A stretch of 64,000 bases of DNA from Anaeromyxobacter soli (lineage in GTDB: Bacteria; Myxococcota; Myxococcia; Myxococcales; Anaeromyxobacteraceae), in assembly GCF_022808855.1 (NCBI RefSeq), contig NZ_JAKZLF010000024.1, positions 1 to 64,000 of the forward strand, in the 5' to 3' direction. Positions within the stretch are counted from its first letter, which is position 1; each line of letters opens with the position of its first letter. Below are positions 5,790 to 64,000 of this stretch, one piece after another. The translations under genes and the position numbers were made by a program. Below the pieces are notes generated by a model that worked only from the letters and a program-made list of their open reading frames with translations, made no database searches and was not told where the DNA came from.

Positions 5790-8495
<2,706 letters not shown>

Positions 8496-8500
8496 GGGTG

Positions 8501-9037
8501 CTACTCCTCGAGGTTCATCGCCGCCTCGCGCGGGAGGCGGATGACGGTCTGGGTCCGGTCACGGGTCCCATCGGCGCGGATCGCCCACTCGGTGACGACC
8601 ACCTCGCCCGAGCGGACGGCGGCGACGGTACCCCCGTTCTTCCCGATGCACACGCCGCGGCGAAGCGTGTAGCCGACGCCGTTCGGCGCCTGCACCATGG
8701 CCACGGGGTTCTCGAGCCCGGTCACGACGGCGACGAGCTTCAGCTGCTCGATCTCGAACTTGCCGAGGGGGGTGGCGCAGCGGGTGGCGAGCTCACCGCC
8801 CTGCTTGGAGAGCTCCGTGAGGTAGCTGCGGAACGGATCGCGCTTGCCGACCGACGAGTACGACCACTCGGGCGCCTTCACCGGCGCCTTGGAGGTAGCG
8901 GCGGCGGGCGCCGCCGGCTGGGGAGCCGCGGCAGCGGTGGCGCCCGGCGCGGGCGGCGGCCGCTGGGCCGGCTTCGGGGAGCTCCCGCAGGCCACCGCCA
9001 GGCCGAGCAGCACGAGGAGCGCGAGACGCGGGCTCAT
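8501..9037 (-). CDS. pilP: type IV pilus inner-membrane lipoprotein
   Basis: PilP links the PilN/PilO periplasmic complex to the secretin PilQ. The 178-residue protein has a lipoprotein signal (MSPRLALLVLLGLAVACGSS), a Pro/Ala-rich linker, and a C-terminal beta-domain (GKRDPFRSYLTEL, VGYTLRRGVCIGKNGGTVAAV) typical of PilP. The ATG at 9037 overlaps the pilO stop by one base (TGATG); an in-frame GTG at 9040 directly before it is an alternative. The gene is 5 bases upstream of pilQ. Confidence 0.94.
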   Translation of the reverse strand: MSPRLALLVLLGLAVACGSSPKPAQRPPPAPGATAAAAPQPAAPAAATSKAPVKAPEWSYSSVGKRDPFRSYLTELSKQGGELATRCATPLGKFEIEQLKLVAVVTGLENPVAMVQAPNGVGYTLRRGVCIGKNGGTVAAVRSGEVVVTEWAIRADGTRDRTQTVIRLPREAAMNLEE

Positions 9038-9660
9038 CACTTCGCTCCTCCGGCGCCGGCGCCAGGCGCTTGCGTCTCGACGAACATGAACGCCGTCGCG
9101 AGGAACCTGGCGCTCAGGACGACCTTGCCGTTCACGTCCTTCGGGGCGTCGAGCGAGATGTCGTTCACGTTCACGATCCGGCGCATCCGCCCGAGCGCGT
9201 CGAAGAACGTCGCGATCTCGTGGAAGTTGCCGGTGACCGTCATGGGGATGGGCAGGCGGGCGTAGAAGCGATCGCGGACGGGCGCCTGCGGCTCGATCGT
9301 GCCGATCTCCAGCCCCGACTTCCGCGCGCGGTCCTGGAACAGGAGCAGGAGCTCGTCGACCTTCTTCTCCTCGGGGAGCTCCGCGAGCGCCTCGCGGAGC
9401 TGCTGCTCGAGGAGCTCCTTCTCGCGGCGGAACTGGTTCAGGTTGTTCGCGATGGCGGTCTTCTCGGTGAACTCACGGTCGAGCTGCGCCTGCTCGCGCC
9501 CGGCGCGCACGATCCGCTCGTTCAGCTCCGAGATGGACGGACCGAAGGTCATGGAGAGCACGAAGTAGTTGAGGACGGTGAGCAGGGAGACGACGAGGCC
9601 GACCACCGCTACCTTGGTGCGGACGGGCTCCTTCGCGATTCGCTCGATGAGCTGGTCCAT
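9037..9660 (-). CDS. pilO: type IV pilus alignment-complex protein PilO
   Basis: PilO is a bitopic inner-membrane protein that dimerises with PilN and connects the cytoplasmic platform to PilP/PilQ. At 207 residues it shows a short cytoplasmic segment, one membrane helix (TKVAVVGLVVSLLTVLNYFVL, about 15-35), a coiled coil (about 45-105, rich in E, R and L) and a periplasmic ferredoxin-like domain (FYARLPIPMTVTGNFHEIATFF). A Gly/Ala-rich tail closes the protein. It follows pilN by 7 bases. Confidence 0.95.
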   Translation of the reverse strand: MDQLIERIAKEPVRTKVAVVGLVVSLLTVLNYFVLSMTFGPSISELNERIVRAGREQAQLDREFTEKTAIANNLNQFRREKELLEQQLREALAELPEEKKVDELLLLFQDRARKSGLEIGTIEPQAPVRDRFYARLPIPMTVTGNFHEIATFFDALGRMRRIVNVNDISLDAPKDVNGKVVLSARFLATAFMFVETQAPGAGAGGAK

Positions 9661-9667
9661 GGCGCCT

Positions 9668-10249
9668 CTAGCCCCCCTGACGCGCGCCGGCGGCCGGCGC
9701 CGGACGGACGGCGTACGCGACGTTGGCGGTCATCATGAAGTCCACGACCCGGAACCCGTTCTCCACCTTCGACGCCGTCTTCTTGAGCTCGATCTCGCGG
9801 AACTGCGTCGAGCCCTTGAGCGCCGCCATGAGCTCCGAGACGTCGTCGATCGTCGCGGCCGTGCCCTCCAGCGTCACCGCCCCGCCCTTCTCCTCCAGCC
9901 TCCACAGCCAGAGCCGCTTCGGCGTGAGCGTGGCGAGCTCGTCGAGCATCTTCACCGGACCGGTGCGGGCGGTCTTGAGCTGGGCGAGGACTTCCAGCTT
10001 CTCCCGAAGCTCCGCCTGCTGCGCCTTGATGTCCTTCACCTCGCCGATGATGCGGTCGAGCTGCGCGATCTCGCCGCGCGTGCGGGCGATGGCGGCCTTC
10101 TTCGCGGCGAGCTCGCTCGCGCGCGAGGCCGCCCAGAGATAGTTGAGGACGACGCCCAGCACGAGCACGAGCGCGAACAGGAGGAGCTGCTGCTTGCCCG
10201 CCTCCTTCTTCTTCGAGACGCGGGCGGGGAGGAGGTTGATGCGGACCAT
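9668..10249 (-). CDS. pilN: type IV pilus alignment-complex protein PilN
   Basis: PilN spans the inner membrane and anchors the actin-like protein PilM through its cytoplasmic N-terminus. The 193-residue product starts MVRINLLPARVSKKKE, carrying the conserved INLLP motif that docks into PilM. One membrane helix follows (QLLLFALVLVLGVVLNYLW), then a coiled coil and a periplasmic domain (LDELATLTPKRLWLWRLEEK). It begins 2 bases after pilM ends, so translation is probably coupled. Confidence 0.96.
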   Translation of the reverse strand: MVRINLLPARVSKKKEAGKQQLLLFALVLVLGVVLNYLWAASRASELAAKKAAIARTRGEIAQLDRIIGEVKDIKAQQAELREKLEVLAQLKTARTGPVKMLDELATLTPKRLWLWRLEEKGGAVTLEGTAATIDDVSELMAALKGSTQFREIELKKTASKVENGFRVVDFMMTANVAYAVRPAPAAGARQGG

Positions 10250-10251
10250 GG

Positions 10252-11307
10252 CTACTTGTCCCCCGCGCTGCGCAGGGCGAGCCCGACCCCGACCGCCGCC
10301 GACGGCGCCGCGGCGAGGAGCACGCCCGCGTCGAACTTCCGGTTGTCGACGTCCACGTTCTTGAACGGGTTCAGGAGCTCGACGTGCACGCCGGCCCGCG
10401 CCTCGAGCACCTTCTGGAGCGCCGGGATCCGGGCGGTGCCGCCCGAGACGAAGACCCGCCCGATGCGCGCGTCACCCGAGGTGGAGGCGAAGAAGTCGAG
10501 CGAGCGCTGGATCTCACCGCCCATCTGCTCGGCGACGGCCTGGATCACCCGCTCGACCTCCTGCGGGACCACGGCGTCGGTCTCACCCTGCCCGCCGACC
10601 TTGAGGGCCTCGGCCTCGTCGTAGGAGATGTTGAGCTGCTTCTGGATCTCCTCGGTGAAGGCGTTCCCGCCCATGGTGATGTCGCGGGTGAAGGTCGTCG
10701 CGCCGCCGGAGAGGATGTTGATGTTGGAGACGGCCGCGCCGACGTTGATGAGGACCACCGTCTGGCCGTCGAGGTCGTAGTTCGCCTCGAACGCGTTCTG
10801 CACCGCGAACGCGTCCACGTCGACGACGGTGGCCGTGAGCCCGGCCTCCGCGCAGACCGACGTGTAGTCGTTGATCATGTCCTTCTTCGCGGCGACCAGC
10901 AGGACGTCCATCTGCCCGGCGGCGTTCGCCTCGGGCGAGAGGATCTGGGTGTCGATGTTCACGTCCTTCACGTCGAAGGGGATGTACTGCTCCGCCTCCC
11001 ACTGGATGGACTCGTCGAGCTCCTCCTGCGTCATCCGCGGCATCGAGATCTTCTTGATGATCACGGAGTGGCCGCCGATGCCGATGGCGACCTCCTTCGT
11101 CTTCACCTTGTGCTGCGCGACGAGCTCCTGGATCGCCGAGACGATCGCGCCCGAGTTCATGAGCGCGCCGTCCACGATCGCCTCGGGCGGCAGCGGCGCG
11201 GTCCCGAACGCCTGCAGCGCGTACCCGCCCTTCTTCTCCTTGAGCTGGACGAGCTTGACGCCGGACGAGCCGATGTCGAGGCCGACGGCGAGCTTCCTCT
11301 TCGCCAT
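10252..11307 (-). CDS. pilM: actin-like type IV pilus assembly protein
   Basis: PilM is an ATP-binding, actin-fold cytoplasmic protein that forms a ring under the pilus base and binds PilN. The 351-residue protein shows the phosphate-1 motif VGLDIGSSGVKLVQLKE, the conserved SMPRMTQEELDESIQWEAEQYIPF region, and a second nucleotide-binding loop (RVFVSGGTARIPALQKVLE). Length and motifs match the family. It heads the pilMNOPQ block; the XRE regulator lies 55 bases upstream on the same strand. Confidence 0.97.
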   Translation of the reverse strand: MAKRKLAVGLDIGSSGVKLVQLKEKKGGYALQAFGTAPLPPEAIVDGALMNSGAIVSAIQELVAQHKVKTKEVAIGIGGHSVIIKKISMPRMTQEELDESIQWEAEQYIPFDVKDVNIDTQILSPEANAAGQMDVLLVAAKKDMINDYTSVCAEAGLTATVVDVDAFAVQNAFEANYDLDGQTVVLINVGAAVSNINILSGGATTFTRDITMGGNAFTEEIQKQLNISYDEAEALKVGGQGETDAVVPQEVERVIQAVAEQMGGEIQRSLDFFASTSGDARIGRVFVSGGTARIPALQKVLEARAGVHVELLNPFKNVDVDNRKFDAGVLLAAAPSAAVGVGLALRSAGDK

Positions 11308-21202: not shown

Positions 21203-21500
21203 TCTCGCGGCAGCCGCGAGGGTTGGCCCTGCGCGCCAGTCGGTCCATTCAAGTACCGAACCCCCGGGCTGCTGCTGGGCGCGTCGCTCGCCGCCGCGCT
21301 CGCGGCAGGGTTGCTCCTGTGGGAAGCGGCGCGCCGCAGGTCGGCGCTCCGCCCACATGCAAACTTTAGCGACCGCTGCAACGAGTAGCGTCGCCGCCGG
21401 CCATCCGTACCTCGGCCTGCGGGCAAGAGCGCGGCGTCTCTAGGAATCTCGAGGAGTCGACGCCCCAGTCGTGGGCCCGCGGCTTGCTTGGCGTGAGCCC
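21203..21500 (+). other. 298-base gap between pilI and the minor pilins
   Basis: No supported gene. A perfect seven-base-pair hairpin (CTCGCGG/CCGCGAG, 21204-21220) follows the pilI stop directly and may be a weak terminator; it has no T-run. The pilI frame reopens for 61 codons (21203-21388) and encodes one membrane-helix-like stretch (PGLLLGASLAAALAAGLLLW), but it has no plausible start codon or ribosome-binding site. The promoter of the minor-pilin operon is presumably here, but I could not place it. Confidence 0.5.
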
Positions 21501-22139
21501 ATGCGCCGGAGCCGCGGGTTCACGCTCATCGAGCTGATGGTGGTCGTCGCCATCGTGGGGATCCTCGCCGCCATGGGGATGGTCGTGTACCGGATGGCCC
21601 AGCGGAACGCGAACCTGGGCAGCGCGACGTTCGAGCTCGCCATGAAGCTCTCGGGGCTCAAGGCGCAGGCCATCTCGGACCAGAAGGACTACCTCCTGGT
21701 CCTCGTCGACGGCACGGATCCGGCGGCTTGCGGTGCGCTCGCCCGCGCCACCTGCACGCGCTACTTCATCCTGCGCGACCCGAACGCCTCCTGGACGCTC
21801 GCCGCGTTCTCTGCGGCGAGCTCCGCCACGAACGCGGAGTACGTCGACGAGGTCGCGATGCCGGCCGGCGTTCGCCTCGACCCGAGCGCCACGGGCGCGC
21901 CGCCCGCTCCGTTCGCGGCCATCCCCCTGTTCGATGCGGACCTGACCGCGACCGTCTCCAGCAAGAGGCGCTTCGCCTTCCGCTTCGCTCGCGACGGGAG
22001 CGTGTCCGCCGAGGGTGCGTCCGGGAAGCCGGGCTACGCCTTCGCGCTCACGACCGAGACCGACTCCCCCGCGGCCGACCGGCGAGGCATGGTCGTCGCG
22101 TTCCCCGCCGGCATCGTCCGCACCTTCGCCCTGAACTAG
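21501..22139 (+). CDS. minor pilin, GspH/FimU type
   Basis: A 212-residue prepilin-like protein with leader MRRSRG and the class III helix FTLIELMVVVAIVGILAAMG (Glu5 present), followed by a beta-rich C-terminal domain. It opens a five-gene operon with PilV-, PilW-, PilX- and PilY1-like genes, matching the fimU-pilVWXY1 priming complexes of other bacteria, where FimU links the tip complex to the PilA fibre. The ATG at 21501 gives a normal leader; an earlier frame start at 21471 would add ten residues. It would be cleaved by PilD. Confidence 0.88.
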   Translation: MRRSRGFTLIELMVVVAIVGILAAMGMVVYRMAQRNANLGSATFELAMKLSGLKAQAISDQKDYLLVLVDGTDPAACGALARATCTRYFILRDPNASWTLAAFSAASSATNAEYVDEVAMPAGVRLDPSATGAPPAPFAAIPLFDADLTATVSSKRRFAFRFARDGSVSAEGASGKPGYAFALTTETDSPAADRRGMVVAFPAGIVRTFALN

Positions 22140-22150
22140 GAGCCGCCTCC

Positions 22151-22747
22151 ATGCAGAGCCGCGCAAACGAGCGCCGTCCGCCGCCGCGGCGCGAGGCTGG
22201 GTTCACGCTCCTCGAGGTGATGATCGCGCTCGTCGTCCTGACCATCGGGCTGCTCGGGATGATGCAGATGCAGATCATGGGGATCACCTCCAACCAGGGC
22301 GCGCGGGTGCAGACGACCGCGTCGCAGCTCGCGACCGAGCTCGCCGGCGCGCTGGAGGCGCTGCCGTTCGACGACTCGCAGAGCCGACTCTCCGGACCCG
22401 CCGCCACCGCGACGCCGCCGGCGGGGTTCGGGCGGCTGCTCGAGGCCGGCACCGGCGGGAGCAACGTGCATACGTGGGACGACTCCACCAACACGGTCCC
22501 GGGCGCTCGCCTCGACGCCGCACTGGAGTCGGATCCGCTCGACCCAGGCAAGCCGCTGTATCGCCGACGCTGGACCGTCTGGAACTACTCGGCTGAAGGC
22601 ACCGCGAGCGGCGCCTCCGCGAGCAAGGTGATCGCCGTGTCGGTCATCTACCACGAGCGCGGGAACGGCACTCCGCGCGAGGTGGTGGTCCTCTCGCAGC
22701 GCTCGAACGCTGGGCTCGCCCTCTCCTACGCCGCGGCGTACCGATGA
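22151..22747 (+). CDS. pilV: minor pilin, PilV type
   Basis: A 198-residue prepilin-like protein. The leader is rather long (17 residues, rich in Arg and Pro, ending REAG), then the helix FTLLEVMIALVVLTIGLLGM with Glu5. The LEVMIALVVLTIGLLG signature is typical of PilV/GspI-like minor pilins. It follows the FimU-like gene by 11 bases and overlaps the PilW-like gene by four (ATGA). A tip-complex role is inferred from operon structure. Confidence 0.87.
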   Translation: MQSRANERRPPPRREAGFTLLEVMIALVVLTIGLLGMMQMQIMGITSNQGARVQTTASQLATELAGALEALPFDDSQSRLSGPAATATPPAGFGRLLEAGTGGSNVHTWDDSTNTVPGARLDAALESDPLDPGKPLYRRRWTVWNYSAEGTASGASASKVIAVSVIYHERGNGTPREVVVLSQRSNAGLALSYAAAYR

Positions 22748-24003
22748 CCTCCATGCGCTCCCGCCCCTCCCCACGCGGCGTCACGCTGGTCGAGCTCCTC
22801 ATCGCGATGGCGGTGTCCGCCATCGTGCTCGTCGGGATCGTGGCCGTCGTGCAGGCGCAGCAGCAGGCCTACACCGACGGGCACCGCGTCCGCGCGGCAC
22901 AGTCGTCAGCGCGGAGCGCGCTCCTGTTCCTGGAGCAGAAGCTGCCCCTCGCCGGCTACGGAATGGCGCCGTCCCTCGCGCTGGACCTCGACCGGTACAC
23001 CTCCGGCCCGTGCCCCGCCCTGCTGCAGGTCTCCGGCGCGTGCAAGCGGGACCGGACCGACGACTCGGACGAGCTCGTCTTCTACGCGCGAAATCCCTCC
23101 TACTGGATCCCGCCCACCGGGGTGGGGACGGCGGCGGGACACGCCTGGACGCTCACGACCTCGGGCGTCACGACCGCGGTGGCGAACATCCAGGCCCGCG
23201 ACGGCGACGTCTTCCGCAAGGGCCGGATCCTGCAGGCGGTCTGCGAAGGGGCGAGCCAGTACGCTTACTTCACGGTGAGCACGACCACGCCTGCGCCCGC
23301 CGGTGGCGGTGCCGTCGCGGTCCCGCTCGAGGCGGCGGTCAGCGGCGATCCCTTCAAGCGCCAGGACGCGGCCACCGACGACTGCTTCGAGACCGGCACG
23401 GCGCGGGTCTTCGAGATCGACCGCTACCGCCTGCACGTTCGCCCGGTGACCGTCGGCACGCAGACCGATCCGTTCCTGGTCCTCGATCGCGGCGTGGACT
23501 CGGCCGGGAGCACCGCCGTCGACGAGGCGGACGAGGAGTTCGTCGCGGAGGGCATCGAGTCGATCCAGGTCGCATACGTGCTCGCGAACGGCTCCGTCGT
23601 CGGCGCGACCTCGGGAACGGCGATCACGCTCACCGCAGGCGCGCCCGGGTCGGCCTCCAGCTCGAACGCGCTCACGACCCTGCAGTTCCCCGGGGCGGCC
23701 CCCGAACCCGACGAGAGCATGTACTCGCCGACGAGCTGGTACCGCTACCTCATGAACCCCCCGGATCCGGCGCGCCTGACGGACCATCAGGCCAACATCC
23801 GCGCGGTGCGCATCGCGATCGTCGCGCGCTCTCCGGAGCCCGATCCGAACGACAGGGGCACGCCCCCCATCCTGCGGCTCAACCAGTCCGCGGTGCCGAG
23901 CTGGGCGGGCGCCGTCGGCGTCCAGGACGGGTACGAGCGCGTCGCGTTCGAGGCCACCATCCCCCTCCCCAACATGCTCTCGCAGGGCATGGTGTTCTTC
24001 TAG
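22744..24003 (+). CDS. pilW: minor pilin, PilW type
   Basis: A 419-residue prepilin-like protein with a 12-residue leader (MTSMRSRPSPRG) and the helix VTLVELLIAMAVSAIVLVGI, Glu5 present. It continues with YTDGHRVRAAQSSARSALLFLEQ, the usual PilW/GspJ pattern, and a large beta-rich domain. Its length and the PSPRGVTLVEL leader fit PilW. Start and stop overlap or nearly touch the neighbours, so it is co-translated with the PilV- and PilX-like proteins. Confidence 0.87.
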   Translation: MTSMRSRPSPRGVTLVELLIAMAVSAIVLVGIVAVVQAQQQAYTDGHRVRAAQSSARSALLFLEQKLPLAGYGMAPSLALDLDRYTSGPCPALLQVSGACKRDRTDDSDELVFYARNPSYWIPPTGVGTAAGHAWTLTTSGVTTAVANIQARDGDVFRKGRILQAVCEGASQYAYFTVSTTTPAPAGGGAVAVPLEAAVSGDPFKRQDAATDDCFETGTARVFEIDRYRLHVRPVTVGTQTDPFLVLDRGVDSAGSTAVDEADEEFVAEGIESIQVAYVLANGSVVGATSGTAITLTAGAPGSASSSNALTTLQFPGAAPEPDESMYSPTSWYRYLMNPPDPARLTDHQANIRAVRIAIVARSPEPDPNDRGTPPILRLNQSAVPSWAGAVGVQDGYERVAFEATIPLPNMLSQGMVFF

Positions 24004-24013
24004 GAACGCCTCC

Positions 24014-24517
24014 ATGAGACCTCGCGCGGCACCCCGCGGCAGCACCCTCGTCATCGCGCTCATCATGCTCGCGGTGCTCTCCGTCATCGGCGCCGCCGCC
24101 GTCCTCCTGTCCTCGCAGGAGCGCCAGAACGCCTCGGCCAAGTCCCGTGTGGACGCGCTCGCGGCCTGCGCGCAGGCGGCCCGGGCGAAGATCTGGGCGG
24201 AGATCGCGCGCTACGGCCCCCGCTACCTCTCGAGCGACGACCTGCTCACCACGCCGCTCGAGATCTCGGGCATCGGCAAGCTCCAGGCGCCCGCGCACTA
24301 CGGGTCCACCGAGGCCATGAAGGTGAACGACGTGGTGCTCGCCGTCGAGAAGGCGGTCAGCGACGGCGCCCCCACGCCCGTCGTGGACCTCACGAACCGC
24401 ACCGCGTCCCCCGACGCGCTCACCTCCGGCCGCGCCTACCGCGTCGTGGCGCGGTGCACCGACGCGCAGAACCGCGAGCTCGAGGTCGAGTTCGCGATGC
24501 GGTTCGCCCTGTTCTAG
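24014..24517 (+). CDS. pilX: minor pilin, PilX type
   Basis: A 167-residue prepilin-like protein: leader MRPRAAPRG, then STLVIALIMLAVLSVIGAAAV. The residue at mature position 5 is Ile rather than Glu. Lack of Glu5 is characteristic of PilX/GspK-type pilins, which cap the initiation complex. The gene sits 10 bases after the PilW-like gene and 15 bases before the PilY1-like gene. Confidence 0.85.
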   Translation: MRPRAAPRGSTLVIALIMLAVLSVIGAAAVLLSSQERQNASAKSRVDALAACAQAARAKIWAEIARYGPRYLSSDDLLTTPLEISGIGKLQAPAHYGSTEAMKVNDVVLAVEKAVSDGAPTPVVDLTNRTASPDALTSGRAYRVVARCTDAQNRELEVEFAMRFALF

Positions 24518-24532
24518 CTCGAGGCTCCGCGC

Positions 24533-27500
24533 ATGCTCTCCTCACGACGAAACGCGCTCCGATTCGCCGCCGCCGCGGCGGCGGCCGCCCTCCTGCTCCC
24601 CGCCGCGGACGCGCCGGCCGAGACCTGCTTCACCCCCGCGGCCGCTCGTGGGCTCGTCGCGACGAGCTACACGGACACGGCCCTCAACGGCGCCGACCCG
24701 GAGGACGCGACCTTCTTCACGAGCGCCGGCGGCGTCCCGAACATCTTCATCCTGCTCGGCAACCCGACCTCGATGCGGCGCCTGCCGCCGAACGGCCCCT
24801 CGTCGTACCCCGGGACGCGTCCGCCTCTCGTGAACCCGCTCGACGCGATCCCCACGCTGAGGCCCTTCGACGCGGACTGCGATCTGATGGCGGGCTGCCC
24901 GGTGATGGGGTGCGGGGACGATCCCGTGTCTGCGGCTTACCTGGGCGACGGCTCTCTCCTCAACTGGCTGCGAGAGCGCTCGTTCCAGTCCCCCTGCGGC
25001 CAGGTCGCGACCGCGGGCGCCGCCGGCACCTACAGCGCGTCCATCGACTACGCCGCCGAGGGAAAGGCGTGCCCCTACTACTCCCAGGGAACCAACGCCA
25101 CCGTCCCAGCCTTCGACTCGAGCCATCCGGGCGGCTACGATCCCGACTTCTACTGCGGGAGCAACGGCGACACCGTCGCGTGCGGCGCCCGGACGAACTT
25201 CTTCGACAAGGACCTCGTCTACCACGACACCGTCGTCGAGACGCCCGCCGGACTGCCGGTCAACGCGAACGACGGCTGGACCGCCCAGAGCGTCAACCCG
25301 GCGGCGCGCAAGAGCGGCACCATCCTCGCCATCGACAACTTCTGCACCAGCACCTACGGCAACGCGGATCAGGGCGCGGTGCCCAAGGCGAGCATCTGCG
25401 CCTCGTGCCTGCGGACGCGCGGCTTCTTCCTCGACGGGAGGCAGTTCCGGACCACGGTGGACGGCGTCGCGAACGTCACCTATCCCTCGATCTACTTCCT
25501 GGGGAACTGGCTCAACTTCTACCCGCCCAAGTTCCTCGTGGCGCGCAAGATCATCAAGGACGTGGTGAAGGACAAGGCGAACGTGCGCATGGGCCTCGCG
25601 CACTTCGGCGACACCGGCGCGGACCACACCTCCGGCGAGTGGATGTCGCTCATGCCGAGATGCGATCAGCCGGACTCGAACTGGACGGCCTCGCGCAGCA
25701 CCTACATCAACGAGATCAACTCGTTCCACTTCAACAAGGGCGCCCCGCTCGCGCGCGCGCTGCTCGACCTCGGGCAGTACTACCACACGCCCGAGCTGCC
25801 CTGGTTCGACCTCGGCACGACCTGGAACGCCAACACCGGCACCACCGGGAGCGGCGCGTCCACCAACCAGCAGTCGATCTGCTACGCGTGCCAGGCGAGC
25901 TCCGTCATCGTCATGCTGGACCGCGCGCCCGCCTCGACCGAGGGCAACGCGCTGCCCGCGGGGAGCGTCGACGCGACCGCAGCCGAGACCCAGTACGCCG
26001 GCGCGACGACGACGGGCGTCGTCCCGGACACCACCGGCGCGACCGGGATCCCCACCTCGCTCTGTACCGACTGCGCCAAGTTCCCCGCCGACAAGGATTG
26101 GCTCAACAACCCGATCCGCGTCGCGTGGTACCTGCACAACTTCGATCTCCGTCGAAACAACGAGAGCACCGAGGACTGCGCCGCCATGGGCGGCAAGCAG
26201 GTCCTCGACGTGTACACGCTCGGCCTCGGCGCCATCGACGACGGCGCGACCATGCTCCAGTCCGTCGCGAGAATGGGCGGCGGCGCCTACGAGGCGGCGA
26301 ACGACGCCCCGACGCTCAAGCAGGCGCTCGAGAACATGTTCCTCACCATCAGCGAGCGCTCCACGTCCTTCAGCGTGGCGACGGTCTCCACCCTGCAGAC
26401 GACCTCGGGCCAGTCGGTGATCGTGCCGCGCTTCGAGCCCGGCGCGCCCAGCGATCGGCTCTGGCAGGGCCACCTCCTCCGCTACGAGCTCTACAGCGAG
26501 TTCATCAACGCCTGCCAGGAGACGGCGGACGGGACCGGCGCGGGCGACCTCGACTGCGACGGCAAGTGCCTGAGCGTCTTCCTCAAGGACAAGGACGGCG
26601 ACTTCATCCAGGAGGACGGCACGGGCGCCTTCCGCAAGAACGACCCGCCGGACGCGGCGCCCTGCTACCAGGCCTCGGCGTGCGTGGCGAAGGGCGGGAC
26701 GTGCGCCGTCGCGGGCACGGCCGCCGCCGCCGAGTACTGGGACGCCCAGAAGGCGATGCGGGCACCGAGCTGGCTGACGGACCGTCGCGTCTACACCGTC
26801 GTGGACGACGCCGGCCCGACCGGCGCCACGCCCGACGGCAAGGTCGACGCCTACGACACGGTGTTCCGACTCCTGCCCACCGACGCCGTCGCGACGAAGC
26901 TCCTGCCCTACCTCGCGCTCGAGGGCGGCGTCTGCACCCAGCTCGCCCTGAAGCTCGGCGCGGCCGGCGACGCCCTCACCGCGAACGCCGTCTCCGCGTC
27001 GCGCCTCTTCTGCGCGAAGACGCTCATCCGCTACGTGCTGGGTGCGGACGTCTTCAACGAGAACGAGGCGAAGCCCGAGCAGGGGCTCTGGCCGAAGGCC
27101 GCCGACGACGCGGGGCAGAACACGCTGCCGAATCGGTTCCTCATGCTCGGCGACATCTTCCACTCCGCGCCCGTGGTCGTGGATCCGCCCCTCCCGCCCG
27201 ACGGCATCCTGTGCCCGAACGGCCTCCACAACCAGTGCCTCACCTCGCTCTGGGGAACGCCCGTCCCGGATCTCTCCAGCACGGAGGACGCCTACGCTGG
27301 GTACGCGAAGAGCGACACGTACAAGAACCGCCGCAAGGTCGTGGTCGTGGGCGCGAACGACGGGCTCTTGCACGCGTTCGACGGCGGTGCCTGGATCGCG
27401 GACCTGAACGATCCCACGACGACCGGAATCGACGAGTCGAAGCCTCCCTTCAACGGCTACTACACGCGCGGCACCGGGGCGGAGCTGTGGGCGCTCCTCC

Positions 27501-29533
27501 CGCCGGACATGCTGCCGAAGGTCGGGCTCCTGCTCCAGGGGCACCAGCTGTTCGTGGACGGCTCGCCCATGGTGCGCGACGTCTGGGTGGACGGCACGGA
27601 GAACGCCCTCGGCTCCGCCTCGGCCCTCAAGGACGGCAAGAAGGGCAAGGCGGAGTTCCACACGGTCGCCGTGGTCGCCGAGCGGCGCGGCGGGACGCAC
27701 TACTTCGGCCTCGACCTGACGGACGCGACCAAGCTCCCGTCCGAGACGGGTCACCAGGCGCCGAAGTTCCTGTGGATCTATCCCCAGCCCACCGACAGGG
27801 AGTCGCTCTCGTTCGGCGCCACCTACGCGGACTTCCTGCCCGTCGGGCCGCCCATCGGCCCCGTGCGCATCAAGTCCGACTCGACCTCGAACGCGCTGTT
27901 CGGGACCCTGCCGCAGTCGACGCTGACCATGTCCGTCCCGGGCGCGACGACGGGGACGTCCACCGCCGTCCCGTATCACGAGCGCTGGGTGGCGCTCCTC
28001 TCTGGCGGCTTCGATCCCCAGTTCGTCCGCGGCCGCGGCGTGCACATGGTGGACGTCTGGACGGGCGACGAGCTCTTCGACTTCAGCCTCCCCACCCAGC
28101 AGGAGAGCCCCGCCCCCGCGACGGACGATCCGCGCTGGAAGCTCCGCGCGCCGGTGCCGGCCACGGCCGCCATGATCGTGTGGGGCAAGAGCGCCCGCCG
28201 TCTGGAGTCCTCGCCCAACGACGGCTACTTCGACACGGCCACCTTCGGAGACGCCGCCGGCCAGCTGTGGGTGCTCCGCTTCAGCGATCCGGGCGAGCTC
28301 GACGCGACCACGAAGAAGGTGACGAACTGGTACGGCGCGCGCGCCTTCGAGCTGGAGGGTTGCGCGGGCCAGCCGTTCTTCTACATCACCGCGAACGCCG
28401 CCATCCCCGGGGGCATCCTGCGCACGTTCGCGGGCACGGGCGATCGCTACAACCTGCTCGACCGGTTCGGCGGCACCTGCGGCCCGGACAACGTCCGGGC
28501 CTGCGTGCAGCGCGGGTGCACCGTCACGATCGCGGACGCCACGAACTCCATCTGGTCGACCGGGCTCGGCAAGGAGTCCGGAGCCGCGACCCTGAACGCG
28601 TGCACGGCGTCCGGCGCCCTGTCCTCCACGCGCAGCCAGACCGAGCCGAGCGCCACGGCGTGCACGCTCTCCGCCCAGGCGAAGGTCTCGATCGACTGCA
28701 CGGGCGCGAACGACACCGAGAAGAACGTCACCGTCGCCTGCTCCGACTCGGCGGCCGGGCTCTCGTGCACCCGCTCCGGCACGAACGGCCTCTTGCTCAA
28801 CCTGGGCGACTCCACCTCCCCGATCCAGCGGGACAACTGGTTCATCTCCGCGCGCGTCTTCGGGGACGACAACCTGCGCCCGGTGTTCCGCACCGCCGCC
28901 GAGGCGAAGACCTACGACACGAACCGGCTGAAGCTGACGGGCTCGGGCGACACCGCGACGCCGCTCGTGCTGATCGACGGGAACGACACCGCCGGCCCCT
29001 TCGCGTCCGCCACCGACGCGGGCTGGGCGCTCCACTACAACCACGACGGCACGATGACCGCCGACGACCACACCTACCCCGTCTCCCGGTACGACGAGCG
29101 CACCTCGTCGACGACGGCCCTGTTCCGCTGGCTCTCCTGGAACACGATCCAGACCGCGTCGCAGGCCGGCGTGACGCGCAAAACCGGGTCGAGCTGTCAG
29201 GTCGCGCAGTGCACCGCGGTGAACCGGCGCGTCGCGTACCACTACATCGTCGATCCGGTGAGGGGGAGCCCGGTCCTCGACGAGGGCGGCACCGCCGTGT
29301 TCGCCCGGGCGCAGAACACGCTCGTGCCGACGATGGGCGATCAGGCGACGGTGTTCGTGAACCAGAAGGGACAGGTGCAGGTCGGGCTCACGGCGGTGAA
29401 CCCGGAGAAGGGCGCGTCCAACGTCTCGACGGCGGTGAGCCGCGATCCGGTCCCGAGCTACGGCGTGATCCAGGTCTCGAAGGGTCTGCACGACTGCCGC
29501 CACAACCCGAGCGCGCCGAACACCTGCAAGTGA
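24533..29533 (+). CDS. pilY1: PilY1-like pilus tip adhesin
   Basis: A 1666-residue exported protein with an Ala-rich signal peptide (cleavage near ADAPAE). Residues about 60-620 resemble a von Willebrand factor A region with a degenerate metal site (ILLGNPTSMRRLPP); FGDTGADHTSGEWMSLMPRC and DVYTLGLGAIDDGATM belong to the same fold. The C-terminal half is a PilY1/PilC beta-propeller (VVVVGANDGLLHAFDGG, ELWALLPPDMLPKVGLLLQG). An acidic loop DGDFIQEDGTG could bind calcium. Cysteines are numerous throughout. PilY1 proteins sit at the pilus tip with the minor pilins and mediate adhesion and surface sensing. Large frames in other phases across this gene are shadows. Confidence 0.92.
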   Translation: MLSSRRNALRFAAAAAAAALLLPAADAPAETCFTPAAARGLVATSYTDTALNGADPEDATFFTSAGGVPNIFILLGNPTSMRRLPPNGPSSYPGTRPPLVNPLDAIPTLRPFDADCDLMAGCPVMGCGDDPVSAAYLGDGSLLNWLRERSFQSPCGQVATAGAAGTYSASIDYAAEGKACPYYSQGTNATVPAFDSSHPGGYDPDFYCGSNGDTVACGARTNFFDKDLVYHDTVVETPAGLPVNANDGWTAQSVNPAARKSGTILAIDNFCTSTYGNADQGAVPKASICASCLRTRGFFLDGRQFRTTVDGVANVTYPSIYFLGNWLNFYPPKFLVARKIIKDVVKDKANVRMGLAHFGDTGADHTSGEWMSLMPRCDQPDSNWTASRSTYINEINSFHFNKGAPLARALLDLGQYYHTPELPWFDLGTTWNANTGTTGSGASTNQQSICYACQASSVIVMLDRAPASTEGNALPAGSVDATAAETQYAGATTTGVVPDTTGATGIPTSLCTDCAKFPADKDWLNNPIRVAWYLHNFDLRRNNESTEDCAAMGGKQVLDVYTLGLGAIDDGATMLQSVARMGGGAYEAANDAPTLKQALENMFLTISERSTSFSVATVSTLQTTSGQSVIVPRFEPGAPSDRLWQGHLLRYELYSEFINACQETADGTGAGDLDCDGKCLSVFLKDKDGDFIQEDGTGAFRKNDPPDAAPCYQASACVAKGGTCAVAGTAAAAEYWDAQKAMRAPSWLTDRRVYTVVDDAGPTGATPDGKVDAYDTVFRLLPTDAVATKLLPYLALEGGVCTQLALKLGAAGDALTANAVSASRLFCAKTLIRYVLGADVFNENEAKPEQGLWPKAADDAGQNTLPNRFLMLGDIFHSAPVVVDPPLPPDGILCPNGLHNQCLTSLWGTPVPDLSSTEDAYAGYAKSDTYKNRRKVVVVGANDGLLHAFDGGAWIADLNDPTTTGIDESKPPFNGYYTRGTGAELWALLPPDMLPKVGLLLQGHQLFVDGSPMVRDVWVDGTENALGSASALKDGKKGKAEFHTVAVVAERRGGTHYFGLDLTDATKLPSETGHQAPKFLWIYPQPTDRESLSFGATYADFLPVGPPIGPVRIKSDSTSNALFGTLPQSTLTMSVPGATTGTSTAVPYHERWVALLSGGFDPQFVRGRGVHMVDVWTGDELFDFSLPTQQESPAPATDDPRWKLRAPVPATAAMIVWGKSARRLESSPNDGYFDTATFGDAAGQLWVLRFSDPGELDATTKKVTNWYGARAFELEGCAGQPFFYITANAAIPGGILRTFAGTGDRYNLLDRFGGTCGPDNVRACVQRGCTVTIADATNSIWSTGLGKESGAATLNACTASGALSSTRSQTEPSATACTLSAQAKVSIDCTGANDTEKNVTVACSDSAAGLSCTRSGTNGLLLNLGDSTSPIQRDNWFISARVFGDDNLRPVFRTAAEAKTYDTNRLKLTGSGDTATPLVLIDGNDTAGPFASATDAGWALHYNHDGTMTADDHTYPVSRYDERTSSTTALFRWLSWNTIQTASQAGVTRKTGSSCQVAQCTAVNRRVAYHYIVDPVRGSPVLDEGGTAVFARAQNTLVPTMGDQATVFVNQKGQVQVGLTAVNPEKGASNVSTAVSRDPVPSYGVIQVSKGLHDCRHNPSAPNTCK

Positions 29534-29558
29534 GCCGCGGCGAGTCGGGGCGGCGCCC

Positions 29559-30932
<1,374 letters not shown>

Positions 30933-35046: not shown

Positions 35047-36753
<1,707 letters not shown>

Positions 36754-58808: not shown

Positions 58809-60695
58809 CTACGCCCCCTCGTCCTCGAGATCGCCGTCCTTGGAGCCGGTCGCGCGCGGGTGCTCGACGATGCTCTCGGCGAACTCCTGCACGCGGTGGC
58901 CGGCCATCGCCTGGCGGATGTGCTTGTCCATCCGCCGCTCGGCGAACGCCTTCGAGGCGGCGTCCACCGACTCGATCCACGCCTTGATCGCGAGGTAGTC
59001 CGGGCCGGCCATGGCGTCCCGCAGCCCGCGCATGCGCTCCTCGATCGGCGCCCGCTCGGCGTCGGTGAGCAGCCCGCCGTCGAGCTCGAAGGCGGACTCG
59101 AGCGAGCCGAGGATCCGGTCGCCCTCCACGCGCCACTCGACGAGGAAGCGCTGGGTCACGTCCTCCTCGGCGTGCTCGATGCTCTCGACGAGCATCTGCT
59201 CGACCTCCTCCTCCGTGAGGCCGTAGGTCGCCTTCACCTGGATCTTCTGCTCGATGCCGGTCGTGAGCTCGCGCGCCGAGACCTGGAGGATCCCGTCCGC
59301 GTCCACGGCGTAGGTGATCTCGACGCGCGCGATCCCCGCCGGCATGGGGGGGATGCCCTTCAGCGTGAAGCGCGCGAGGGAGCGGCAGTCGCGGGCGAGC
59401 TCGCGCTCGCCCTGCACGACGTGCACGACCATCCCGGTCTGGCCGTCGGCGTAGGTCGTGAACTGCTGGGTGGCGCTCGCCGGGATGGTCGAGTTCCGCA
59501 TGATGATCTTCTCGACGACCCCGCCCATCATCTCGACGCCGAGCGACAGCGGGATGACGTCGAGCAGGAGCAGGTCCTCGCGCCCGCCGCGGTCGAGCGC
59601 GTCGGCCTGCACCGCGGCGCCGAGCGCGACCACCGTGTCGGGGTCGAGGTCCGTGAGCGGCTCCTGCCCGAAGATCCGCCGCACGTGGCGGCGCACGAGC
59701 GGCGTCCGCGTCGCGCCGCCGACGAGGACCACCCCGTCCACCTTCGCGACGTTCGCGTCGCGCAGCGCCGCCTCGCACGGTCCGGTCGTGCGATCCACCA
59801 CCGGCTGGATGAGCGCCTCCAGCTCGGCGCGGGTGAGCCGCGCCCGCAGGCGGTGGCCCTCGGGGAGCTCCACGTCCGCCTCGACCACCTCGTGCGCGGT
59901 CAGCTCCTCGCGGATCTTCTGCGCCGCGGCCACCGCCCCGCGCAGCACGGCCGGCGACGGCGCGCCGTTCGGGGGCGTGAGCCCGTCCTCCATGAGCCTC
60001 CGCGCCACGAGCCGGTCGAAGTCGTCGCCGCCGAGGTGCGTGTCGCCCACGGTGGAGAGCACCTCGAAGACCCCGGCGTCGAGCCGCAGGATCGACACGT
60101 CGAACGTGCCGCCGCCGAGGTCGTACACGGCGAAGATGCCCTGCGAGCGCTTGTCGAGCCCGTACGCGAGGGCCGCCGCGGTGGGCTCGTTGAGGAGCCG
60201 GAGCACGTCGAGGCCGGCGAGCCGCCCGGCGTCCTTGGTCGCCTGGCGCTGCGCGTCGTCGAAGTAGGCGGGGACGGTGATGACGCAGCCGCCCGGCGCG
60301 CCGCCGAGCGCCTCCGCGGCGCCCCGCTTCAGGACGCGGAGGATCTCGGCGGAGACCTCGATCGGCGTGACGGCGCGCGTGCCGCCGTTCAGGACGAGCC
60401 GCACGACCGCCCCGGACTCGTCGAAGCGGTAGATGCCGCGGTCCTCGGGGCGGATGTCCCCGGGGCCGCGGCCCATGAAGCGCTTCACCGAGAGGATGGT
60501 GTCGAGCGGCCGCTCCGGCGCCCGGCGCTTCGCGCCCGCGCCGACCTCCGGGTCGCCGCCCGCGTCGTAGTACACCGCCGAGGGGAGGAGCCGGCTCCCG
60601 CCGTCCACCTCCAGCACCTGCGGGCGGTTCCGCTCGTCCACGTGGGCGACGAGCGAGTTCGTCGTGCCGAGATCGATCCCGATCGCGCGCGGCAT
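58809..60695 (-). CDS. hscA: Hsp70-type chaperone for Fe-S cluster assembly
   Basis: HscA moves clusters from IscU to acceptors with HscB. The 628-residue protein has the Hsp70 ATPase motifs [31 protein letters not shown] and [17 protein letters not shown], a substrate domain, and a C-terminal lid ending in an acidic tail (GDLEDEGA). The context (iscA-hscB-hscA-fdx) distinguishes it from DnaK. It starts with ATG at 60695, eight bases after hscB. Confidence 0.95.
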
Positions 60696-60703
60696 GTGGC
60701 TCC

Positions 60704-61327
60704 TCAGGGTCCGGCGGCGGCGGCGCCGCGTTCGGCGTCCGCCACGATGTTGTCGTAGTACCGCGCGCGGGAGAGGCGCCGCGCGATCTCCACCGGCAGC
60801 TCCGAGAACCAGTGGTCGTCCTCGAACATGCCTCCGACCTCCGCCTCGATCCCTTCGAGCCGGGAGCGCGCCGCGCGCGCGATGCGCCGCAGGGCCTCCC
60901 CGTCGCCGTCGGAGAGCGCGAGGGCGAGCGCCTCCCGCCACTCCAGCTGCTCCTCCAGGAACTCGGGGTCGGTGAAGGTCCGCCCCTCGGAGAACACGTC
61001 CGTCCCGGCGAGCTTCAGGAGGTAGGCGGCGCGGAGCCGCCAGTCCTTCAGGTAGCGGAAGGCGTCGTTGAGGCGGGTGGCGCGCTCCAGGGAGAGCCGC
61101 CGCTCCCGCGGTTCGGCGCGCGCGAACCGATCCGGGTGGAGCACGCGGGAGAGCTCGCGGAAGCGCCGCTCGAGGTCGGCCCGGTCGAGCGCGAACTCGC
61201 GCGGGAGGCCGAGGAGCGAGAAGTAGTCCTCGGTGCGCGCGACCGGCTGGATCTTGCGGCAACGCGGGCAGAAGAGCGTCCCGCTCTCCAGCTCCAGCTC
61301 GCAGCTCCAGCAGGTCGGGTGGCGCAT
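60704..61327 (-). CDS. hscB: J-domain co-chaperone HscB with N-terminal zinc site
   Basis: A 207-residue co-chaperone. A tetracysteine motif precedes the J-domain (CWSC and CPRC, about residues 6-26), as in eukaryotic HSC20 and unlike E. coli HscB. The J-domain shows [15 protein letters not shown] and the HPD in [11 protein letters not shown]. The C-terminal domain ([37 protein letters not shown]) binds IscU. The ATG at 61327 fits the family; a duplicated segment just upstream creates a five-codon frame (see findings). Confidence 0.92.
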
Positions 61328-63610: not shown

Positions 63611-64000
63611 ATGCGCCTTCCGACCCGGATCCTCCTCGCAGCGCTGACCTTCGCGGCGGTCGCGTGGCTGCCTGAGCTGGTCGGCCTGGGCCCGACCGGG
63701 TCCCAGAGCGACCTCCAGCTCGGCACCCTGCTCGCCGAGGGCTCGATCGTCGCGTTCGCCGTCGCCTTCGTGGGGGGCGTCGCGACGAGCCTCACCCCCT
63801 GTGTGTACCCGCTCATCCCGATCACCGTCTCCATCTTCGGCGCCCGCAAGGCCGGCACCCGCTCCGAGGCGATGGCGCTCTCCGGGCTGTACGTCCTCGG
63901 GATCGCCGCGATGTACTCCGCGCTCGGCGTGGGCGCGGCGCTCACCGGCAAGGCGTTCGGGAGCGTGATGCAGAACCCGTGGGTGATCGGGCTCGTCGCG
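63611..64000 (+). CDS. DsbD/CcdA-like membrane protein, 3' end outside the window
   Basis: The frame opens with an ATG at 63611 and continues to the window edge (130 codons, no stop). After a hydrophobic N-terminal segment (LLAALTFAAVAWL), VATSLTPCVYPLIPITVSIF carries the conserved Cys-Pro region of the DsbD/CcdA membrane electron carrier; a second helix follows (LYVLGIAAMYSALGVGAAL). These proteins pass reducing power across the membrane to periplasmic thioredoxin-like partners. Whether a C-terminal thioredoxin domain exists cannot be seen. An AAGGGA precedes the start by three bases. Confidence 0.85.
   Translation, partial: MRLPTRILLAALTFAAVAWLPELVGLGPTGSQSDLQLGTLLAEGSIVAFAVAFVGGVATSLTPCVYPLIPITVSIFGARKAGTRSEAMALSGLYVLGIAAMYSALGVGAALTGKAFGSVMQNPWVIGLVA

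Follow-up and report, generated by a model that had tools for sequence, protein, structure and literature searches.

We think it probable that the only PilY1 found in Anaeromyxobacter soli is a pilus-tip protein that has kept the vWA module of its N-terminal half and vacated the metal site (MIDAS) within that module. Residues of the site have changed, two congeners have lost the Asp and the Thr as well, the gene stands in a minor-pilin operon under purifying selection, and changes at the same site recur elsewhere in PilY1; the pocket would hold no metal, and the tip would grip in another way. Throughout, the window is the whole 64,000-nucleotide stretch of DNA that was analysed.

A pilY1 gene behind the minor pilins

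PilY1 proteins stand at the tip of type IVa pili and prime their assembly. In the window, pilY1 lies 3′ of, and is encoded together with, four minor pilins: two N-methylated ones, assigned to the FimU and PilV types from N_methyl plus position, and a PilW and a PilX recognized by Pfam. Further pil genes lie on either side:

5793–11307, minus strand: pilQ, pilO, pilN and pilM (Pfam Secretin, PilO, PilN and PilM_2; the frame between pilQ and pilO lay outside the scan)
21471–22139, plus strand: minor pilin of the FimU/FimT type (Pfam N_methyl, E = 4.2e-10; FimU/FimT name from position)
22136–22747, plus strand: minor pilin of the PilV type (Pfam N_methyl, E = 8.3e-09; PilV name from position)
22744–24003, plus strand: minor pilin PilW (Pfam PilW, E = 1.8e-08)
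24014–24517, plus strand: minor pilin PilX (Pfam PilX_N, E = 4.6e-06)
24533–29533, plus strand: pilY1, pilus-tip adhesin/priming protein of 1666 aa (open frame; family-profile match to 3HX6)
24533–24619, plus strand: signal-peptide-like start, residues 1–29 (by eye from the translation)
24710–26452, plus strand: vWA-type domain containing a long insert, residues 60–640 (alignment to MIDAS-intact PilY1 relatives)
27086–28402, plus strand: beta-propeller region, residues 852–1290 (3HX6 homology via the family profile)
35047–36753, minus strand: pilB extension ATPase (Pfam T2SSE, E = 3.2e-141, plus MshEN)

The window also holds pilT, pilC, pilS and pilR (by eye from the list of open reading frames). 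The protein encoded at 24533–29533 is a type IVa pilus PilY1, and its gene belongs to a pil/minor-pilin cluster of Anaeromyxobacter. A sequence-only reading of this DNA had proposed a PilY1-like adhesin here, which the open reading frame, the minor-pilin cluster and a family-level match bear out: a profile of window PilY1 and 30 relatives matched the propeller structure of Pseudomonas aeruginosa PilY1 (3HX6) with E = 5.5e-18, and 25 of the 31 profile members, window PilY1 not being one of them, matched PF05567 (E ≤ 0.1). The same reading had called the propeller intact. At the level of the family, sequence comparison indicates that a PilY1 beta-propeller is present; for window PilY1 alone, the score against Pfam T4P_PilY1 was 8.3 bits, below the cut-off of 28.1, and its calcium loop (see below) lacks two of the four consensus ligand positions.

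The frame contains no stops. Two other long frames are open across it, one of 1713 aa (24454–29595, plus strand, other frame) and one of 1653 aa (24542–29503, minus strand), probably an effect of high G+C. When the genome was searched with the PilY1 protein, and also with the 31-sequence profile, one match only was found; a PF05567 search gave no match in this genome or in 14 control genomes and is uninformative on copy number. A scan of viral contigs found no PilY1 relatives. Named Anaeromyxobacter contigs with pilY1 were those of A. oryzisoli SG63 and A. sp. PSR-1.

The available text of a 2026 study (PMC13190605) describes a PilY1 clade 1.7 that resembles window PilY1 in its genus, in the position of pilY1 inside the major pil cluster and in its great length, and reports a single pilY1 locus in five of six Anaeromyxobacter genomes, as we found one here. 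Judged from genus, window PilY1 would fall in clade 1.7. The PilY1.3 protein of Myxococcus xanthus is likewise composed of an N-terminal vWA domain and a C-terminal propeller, has minor-pilin neighbours and is cysteine-rich. By analogy with M. xanthus, the likeliest position of window PilY1 is at the type IVa pilus tip, on FimU, PilV, PilW and PilX, where its propeller would prime pilus assembly.

Three of five metal-site positions have changed

A canonical MIDAS uses the first Asp, the first Ser and the Thr, directly or through water. The corresponding features of window PilY1 are as follows:

24758–24772, plus strand: degenerate first MIDAS loop GNPTS, residues 76–80, DxSxS in intact relatives (alignment)
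25742–25744, plus strand: A404, replacing the loop-2 MIDAS Thr (alignment)
25919–25924, plus strand: D463 kept, with R464 next to it where intact relatives have DG (alignment)

In the first loop (ILLGNPTSM, residues 73–81), GNPTS aligns to DTSGS of three close congeners within shared sequence (PNIFILLGNPTSMRRLPPNGP versus PNIMFLLDTSGSMQRLPPDGP); D76 has become G and S78 has become P, while S80 is kept. The second loop has lost its Thr (GAPLA versus GGTPLA or SGTPLA), and the third keeps its Asp (D463), but LDRAP replaces TDGEP. Three of the five site positions are therefore altered (D76, S78 and T404) and S80 and D463 remain, giving GNPTS, A404 and D463 in place of the vWA-with-MIDAS pattern DxSxS…T…D. 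A DxS/TxS/T motif occurs in window PilY1 at residues 913, 960, 1335 and 1505 only, and none was found in the N-terminal domain. The earlier description of a degenerate MIDAS without the first Asp and a Ser was correct for the first loop and incomplete for the site, since it left the Thr-to-Ala change in loop 2 and the change in loop 3 unmentioned.

We compared these residues among nine Anaeromyxobacter genomes including that of the window, as the sequence-only reading had suggested; PilY1 was matched in eight of them, and the remaining one has a completeness of 66%. The three loops read:

Window PilY1: GNPTS / APLA / LDRAP
Two close MIDAS-less congeners: GNATS / APLA / VDRAP and GNSTS / VPLA / VDRAP
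A. oryzisoli: GTADS / SPLS / TDGQP
Three close congeners (L005–L007): DTSGS / TPLA / TDGEP
A fourth, divergent intact congener (L038): DNSGS / TPLG / TDGEP

Four congeners thus retain DxSxS..T..D, two have the Asp and Thr losses of window PilY1, and A. oryzisoli has part of the loss. Because one congener keeps S78 (GNSTS), all that the whole MIDAS-less trio shares is loss of the Asp and of the Thr. The sequences allow, without establishing, a single loss in the trio and A. oryzisoli together: a tree uniting the four in one clade is not rejected (p-AU 0.10 for the N-terminal part and 0.41 for the C-terminal part). Unlike our comparison, PMC13190605, in its accessible sections, describes neither aligned changes in three loops nor a split within the genus.

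Published relatives differ from window PilY1 at this site. M. xanthus PilY1.3 has two DxSxS motifs according to the part of PMC11046646 at hand, whereas the N-terminal part of window PilY1 has none; the P. aeruginosa MIDAS is called ‘perfectly conserved’ in the passages seen from Webster 2022 (PMC8806160); and the MIDAS of Kingella PilC1 is reported as essential (as cited in excerpts of PMC12607626 and PMC12607857), while that of window PilY1 is degenerate.

The N-terminal domain

The N-terminal domain of window PilY1 is clearly homologous to that of its MIDAS-intact relatives by alignment. Direct matches to vWA domains were few: Pfam VWA did not match window PilY1 alone up to E = 10, PF00092 was matched by 3 of the 31 profile members (E ≤ 0.1), and the 31-sequence family profile matched a VWFA chain with E = 0.0092. 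A profile of the MIDAS-less trio gave no signal (E = 0.31) against three vWA proteins encoded in this genome; the MIDAS-intact subset did match them (E = 4.5e-5), but over only 18 columns around DxSxS, so the comparison counts for little. Structures predicted from a three-sequence alignment had a mean pLDDT of 28.2 for residues 31–645 and 27.2 for residues 600–1666. A model of a clade 1.7 PilY1 from A. dehalogenans lies within an RMSD of 3 of a model of M. xanthus PilY1.3 (PMC13190605, partial text), which supports a vWA-type N terminus for clade 1.7. For window PilY1 we infer from homology a vWA fold whose pocket would be empty.

In M. xanthus, deletion of the PilY1.3 vWA domain phenocopies the null mutant, and pili are lost if PilY1.1 is absent too (PMC9109919, from the portion available); the domain can therefore matter apart from ligand binding.

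Purifying selection on the altered gene

We estimated dN/dS pairwise by the Nei-Gojobori method over residues 31–1666, residues 290–620 and the propeller. The MIDAS-less trio, which has an overall identity of 73–78%, gave 0.30–0.38, 0.31–0.49 and 0.24–0.29, respectively; two MIDAS-intact pairs gave 0.09–0.12, 0.15–0.21 and 0.06–0.08; and A. oryzisoli against a MIDAS-intact congener gave 0.66, 0.67 and 0.43. Window pilY1 is open and under purifying selection, and the domain is constrained. Outside the intact pairs the ratios are higher, which could come from deeper divergence or from a degree of relaxation.

That the vWA domain is decaying without function, on a pilus no longer needing tip adhesion, seems very improbable to us. 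The MIDAS-less congeners exceed the two intact pairs in overall dN/dS, as would suit such decay, but the ratio stays well below 1, and residues 290–620 evolve at 1.1–1.9 times the propeller value in the trio versus about 2.6 times in the intact pairs. Moreover, all 40 cysteines are conserved at this level of identity and the frame is free of stops. A retained domain with a vacated site is the reading we prefer, and the earlier proposal that metal-dependent binding is probably lost remains the best account of the changes at three of five site positions, their partial sharing by two congeners and the selection on the gene.

Recurrent change of the site across Myxococcota

We surveyed 76 usable Myxococcota PilY1 sequences including that of the window, a partial sample mostly from the order Myxococcales. 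Some listed loci were left out, and at the thresholds used 31 of 97 genomes in one search and 83 of 156 in another gave no match, so some PilY1 types are missing from it. The site is intact in 45 of the 76 and altered at one or more of the five positions in 31 (window included). A first propeller tree of 60 rows had 8 label changes; its 29 altered labels include a wrong one, given to L047 owing to a gap. A 59-row tree had 6 changes. On corrected 57-row trees (25 altered) the label changed 6 times for either part, N-terminal or propeller; branches with good support require no fewer than 3 of these changes in the first and 5 in the second. Shuffled labels need about 19 changes, and none of 500 shuffles was as low as the observed 6; site states are therefore clade-structured and change is recurrent, with loss and gain indistinguishable.

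Whole clades are altered (GNNxS with ERSIGE, YPxxxS with NPxAE, and MNRRR), as are more recent groups (L097/L100, L110/L112 and the window clade). One sequence, L093 (G115:C124:74450-79500), groups with the GNNxS clade by its N-terminal domain (SH-aLRT 99) and with a MIDAS-intact clade by its propeller (96), likely the outcome of an exchange of tip domains among PilY1 lineages. Another Myxococcales relative of PilY1 (G079:C2:7306679-7311160) carries one in-frame TAG and is possibly a pseudogene. An equation of the YPxxxS clade with M. xanthus PilY1.1/1.2 was dropped, the matches of the clade member that was tried being at 27–31% and over part of the propeller only. It matched three of four Myxococcaceae-type genomes, the three being of one genus (taken as Myxococcus), and gave no match in the fourth genome, which is of another genus.

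MIDAS presence is reported to vary among myxobacterial PilY1 and to be spread over multiple lineages in PMC13190605, where, by the portion of its methods at hand, DxSxS was sought manually; the distribution given there is scattered, whereas changes in our aligned data are clade-structured. A literature search joining PilY1, MIDAS and ‘degenerate’ found no paper.

Among 30 non-redundant altered rows, D463 is kept in 28, S80 in 22 and D76 in 4. Such persistence of D463 and S80 would be odd for a dead pocket and speaks for a rebuilt site in which a cation is still bound, by S80 and D463 joined with acidic or hydroxyl groups of further residues. We regard this as improbable for window PilY1, in which the first Asp, the first Ser and the Thr are gone and none of the three loops has gained an acid, R464 following D463 instead.

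Basic residues in the altered loops

Lys or Arg occurs within the three loops in 25 of the 31 altered versus 1 of the 45 intact sequences. The excess was 1.53 per sequence against 0.40 in random column sets and was reached in 1 of 2000 draws, taken from columns of the same region that are rarely Lys or Arg in intact sequences and with rows that are not independent. Counted as events on the tree, there were 19 changes in 16 site columns versus a random mean of 8.7, a value reached by 58 of 5000 draws.

A basic side chain may have replaced the metal and paired with the retained Asp, giving a metal-independent binding or locking site; candidates are R464 or K/R402 in the window clade, R404 in the GNN clade and Arg or Lys in other clades. 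Both counts favour this, as do L097 and L100, which have lost D463 and carry no Lys or Arg in their loops. However, the test was post hoc and only 5 of 9 hand-grouped altered groups show the residues, which is possible by drift alone, and the excess is for these reasons a hint. We hold such a replacement to be an unlikely, though credible, alternative to a simply vacated site, and a general form of it, in which PilY1 tips repeatedly swapped a divalent cation for a basic side chain paired with the third-loop Asp, to be a shade more doubtful.

An incomplete calcium loop in the propeller

Alignment to the 3HX6 loop placed one further site:

28208–28234, plus strand: incomplete propeller calcium loop SSPNDGYFD, residues 1226–1234

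The two close congeners have ASPNEGYFD and SSPNQGYFD. The P. aeruginosa propeller is homologous to that of the window family, but its loop is complete (D-x-N-x-D…D in 3HX6), and window PilY1 departs from the pattern Dx[DN]xD…D. Only 6 of the 76 sequences have the full pattern, all in the YPxxxS clade (L010, L014, L021, L036, L046 and L096), so it does not define the wider PilY1 family. That clade is the sole one with a complete calcium loop, yet it is without a MIDAS; three of its members (L010, L014 and L036) have RGD directly after the third-loop Asp-Gly. Clade 1.7 resembles window PilY1 in being without consensus calcium motifs, and most of its proteins lack all three predicted ones (PMC13190605, in the text available), by which report the missing motifs were already known.

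Cysteines and a distant DsbD-like gene

Window PilY1 contains 40 Cys (2.44% of the mature protein), all kept in both close MIDAS-less congeners; at 29 of the 40 positions, half or more of the sequences with a residue there have Cys. One pair precedes the third metal loop:

25880–25891, plus strand: CxxC (C450 and C453; of the 76 sequences, that of the window among them, all have C450 and 70 have C453)

The dozens of cysteines noted in the sequence-only reading are literally there, yet a content it called very high is ordinary for the family, with a median of 2.19% over the 76 sequences (window included; range 1.70–4.13) and 20 of them above window PilY1. Clade 1.7, which includes Anaeromyxobacter, was moreover already described as the most cysteine-rich PilY1, with a median of 41 Cys against our 40 (PMC13190605, from the part seen), and high cysteine is thus not peculiar to this protein.

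A downstream DsbD-like gene had been put forward, as a speculation, as serving PilY1 disulfides. The gene exists (DsbD_TM match at contig positions 63752–64369, starting in the window and extending beyond its end), but about 34 kb from pilY1, beside IscS- and HscB-type genes and IscU- and HscA-like frames (the latter two by eye) and outside the pil cluster; a second DsbD_TM match lies on another contig. At this distance no link between DsbD and PilY1 is supported, and we rejected it. Nearby, a frame opposite the HscA/DnaK-like frame (58860–60758, plus strand) matches Pfam NAD-GH with E = 5e-145, and that family looks as if it was built from antisense translations.

Discussion

We propose that the N-terminal vWA-type domain of window PilY1 is retained as a folded, disulfide-rich tip module with an emptied metal site, which should have ended any binding by way of a metal-bridged acidic group. 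Changing the MIDAS of Kingella kingae PilC1 to AxAxA is reported to have abolished adhesion and twitching (as cited in excerpts of PMC12607626 and PMC12607857), and loss of the MIDAS in a sole PilY1 should thus be costly unless compensated. The tip would then have to grip by another surface, such as the long insert that separates the first strand from the remainder of the domain.

If a basic side chain has indeed taken the place of the cation, an integrin-like, metal-gated adhesin would have become a metal-independent one, and window PilY1, which is also without the consensus calcium ligands of the propeller, would be a pilus tip without either metal. A vWA annotation in PilY1 is not equivalent to metal-dependent adhesion. 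A genus with MIDAS-keeping and MIDAS-losing species, and one PilY1 found per genome, amounts to a natural experiment on the metal site, and the contrast within Anaeromyxobacter could separate the role of the domain in assembly from its metal-dependent grip.
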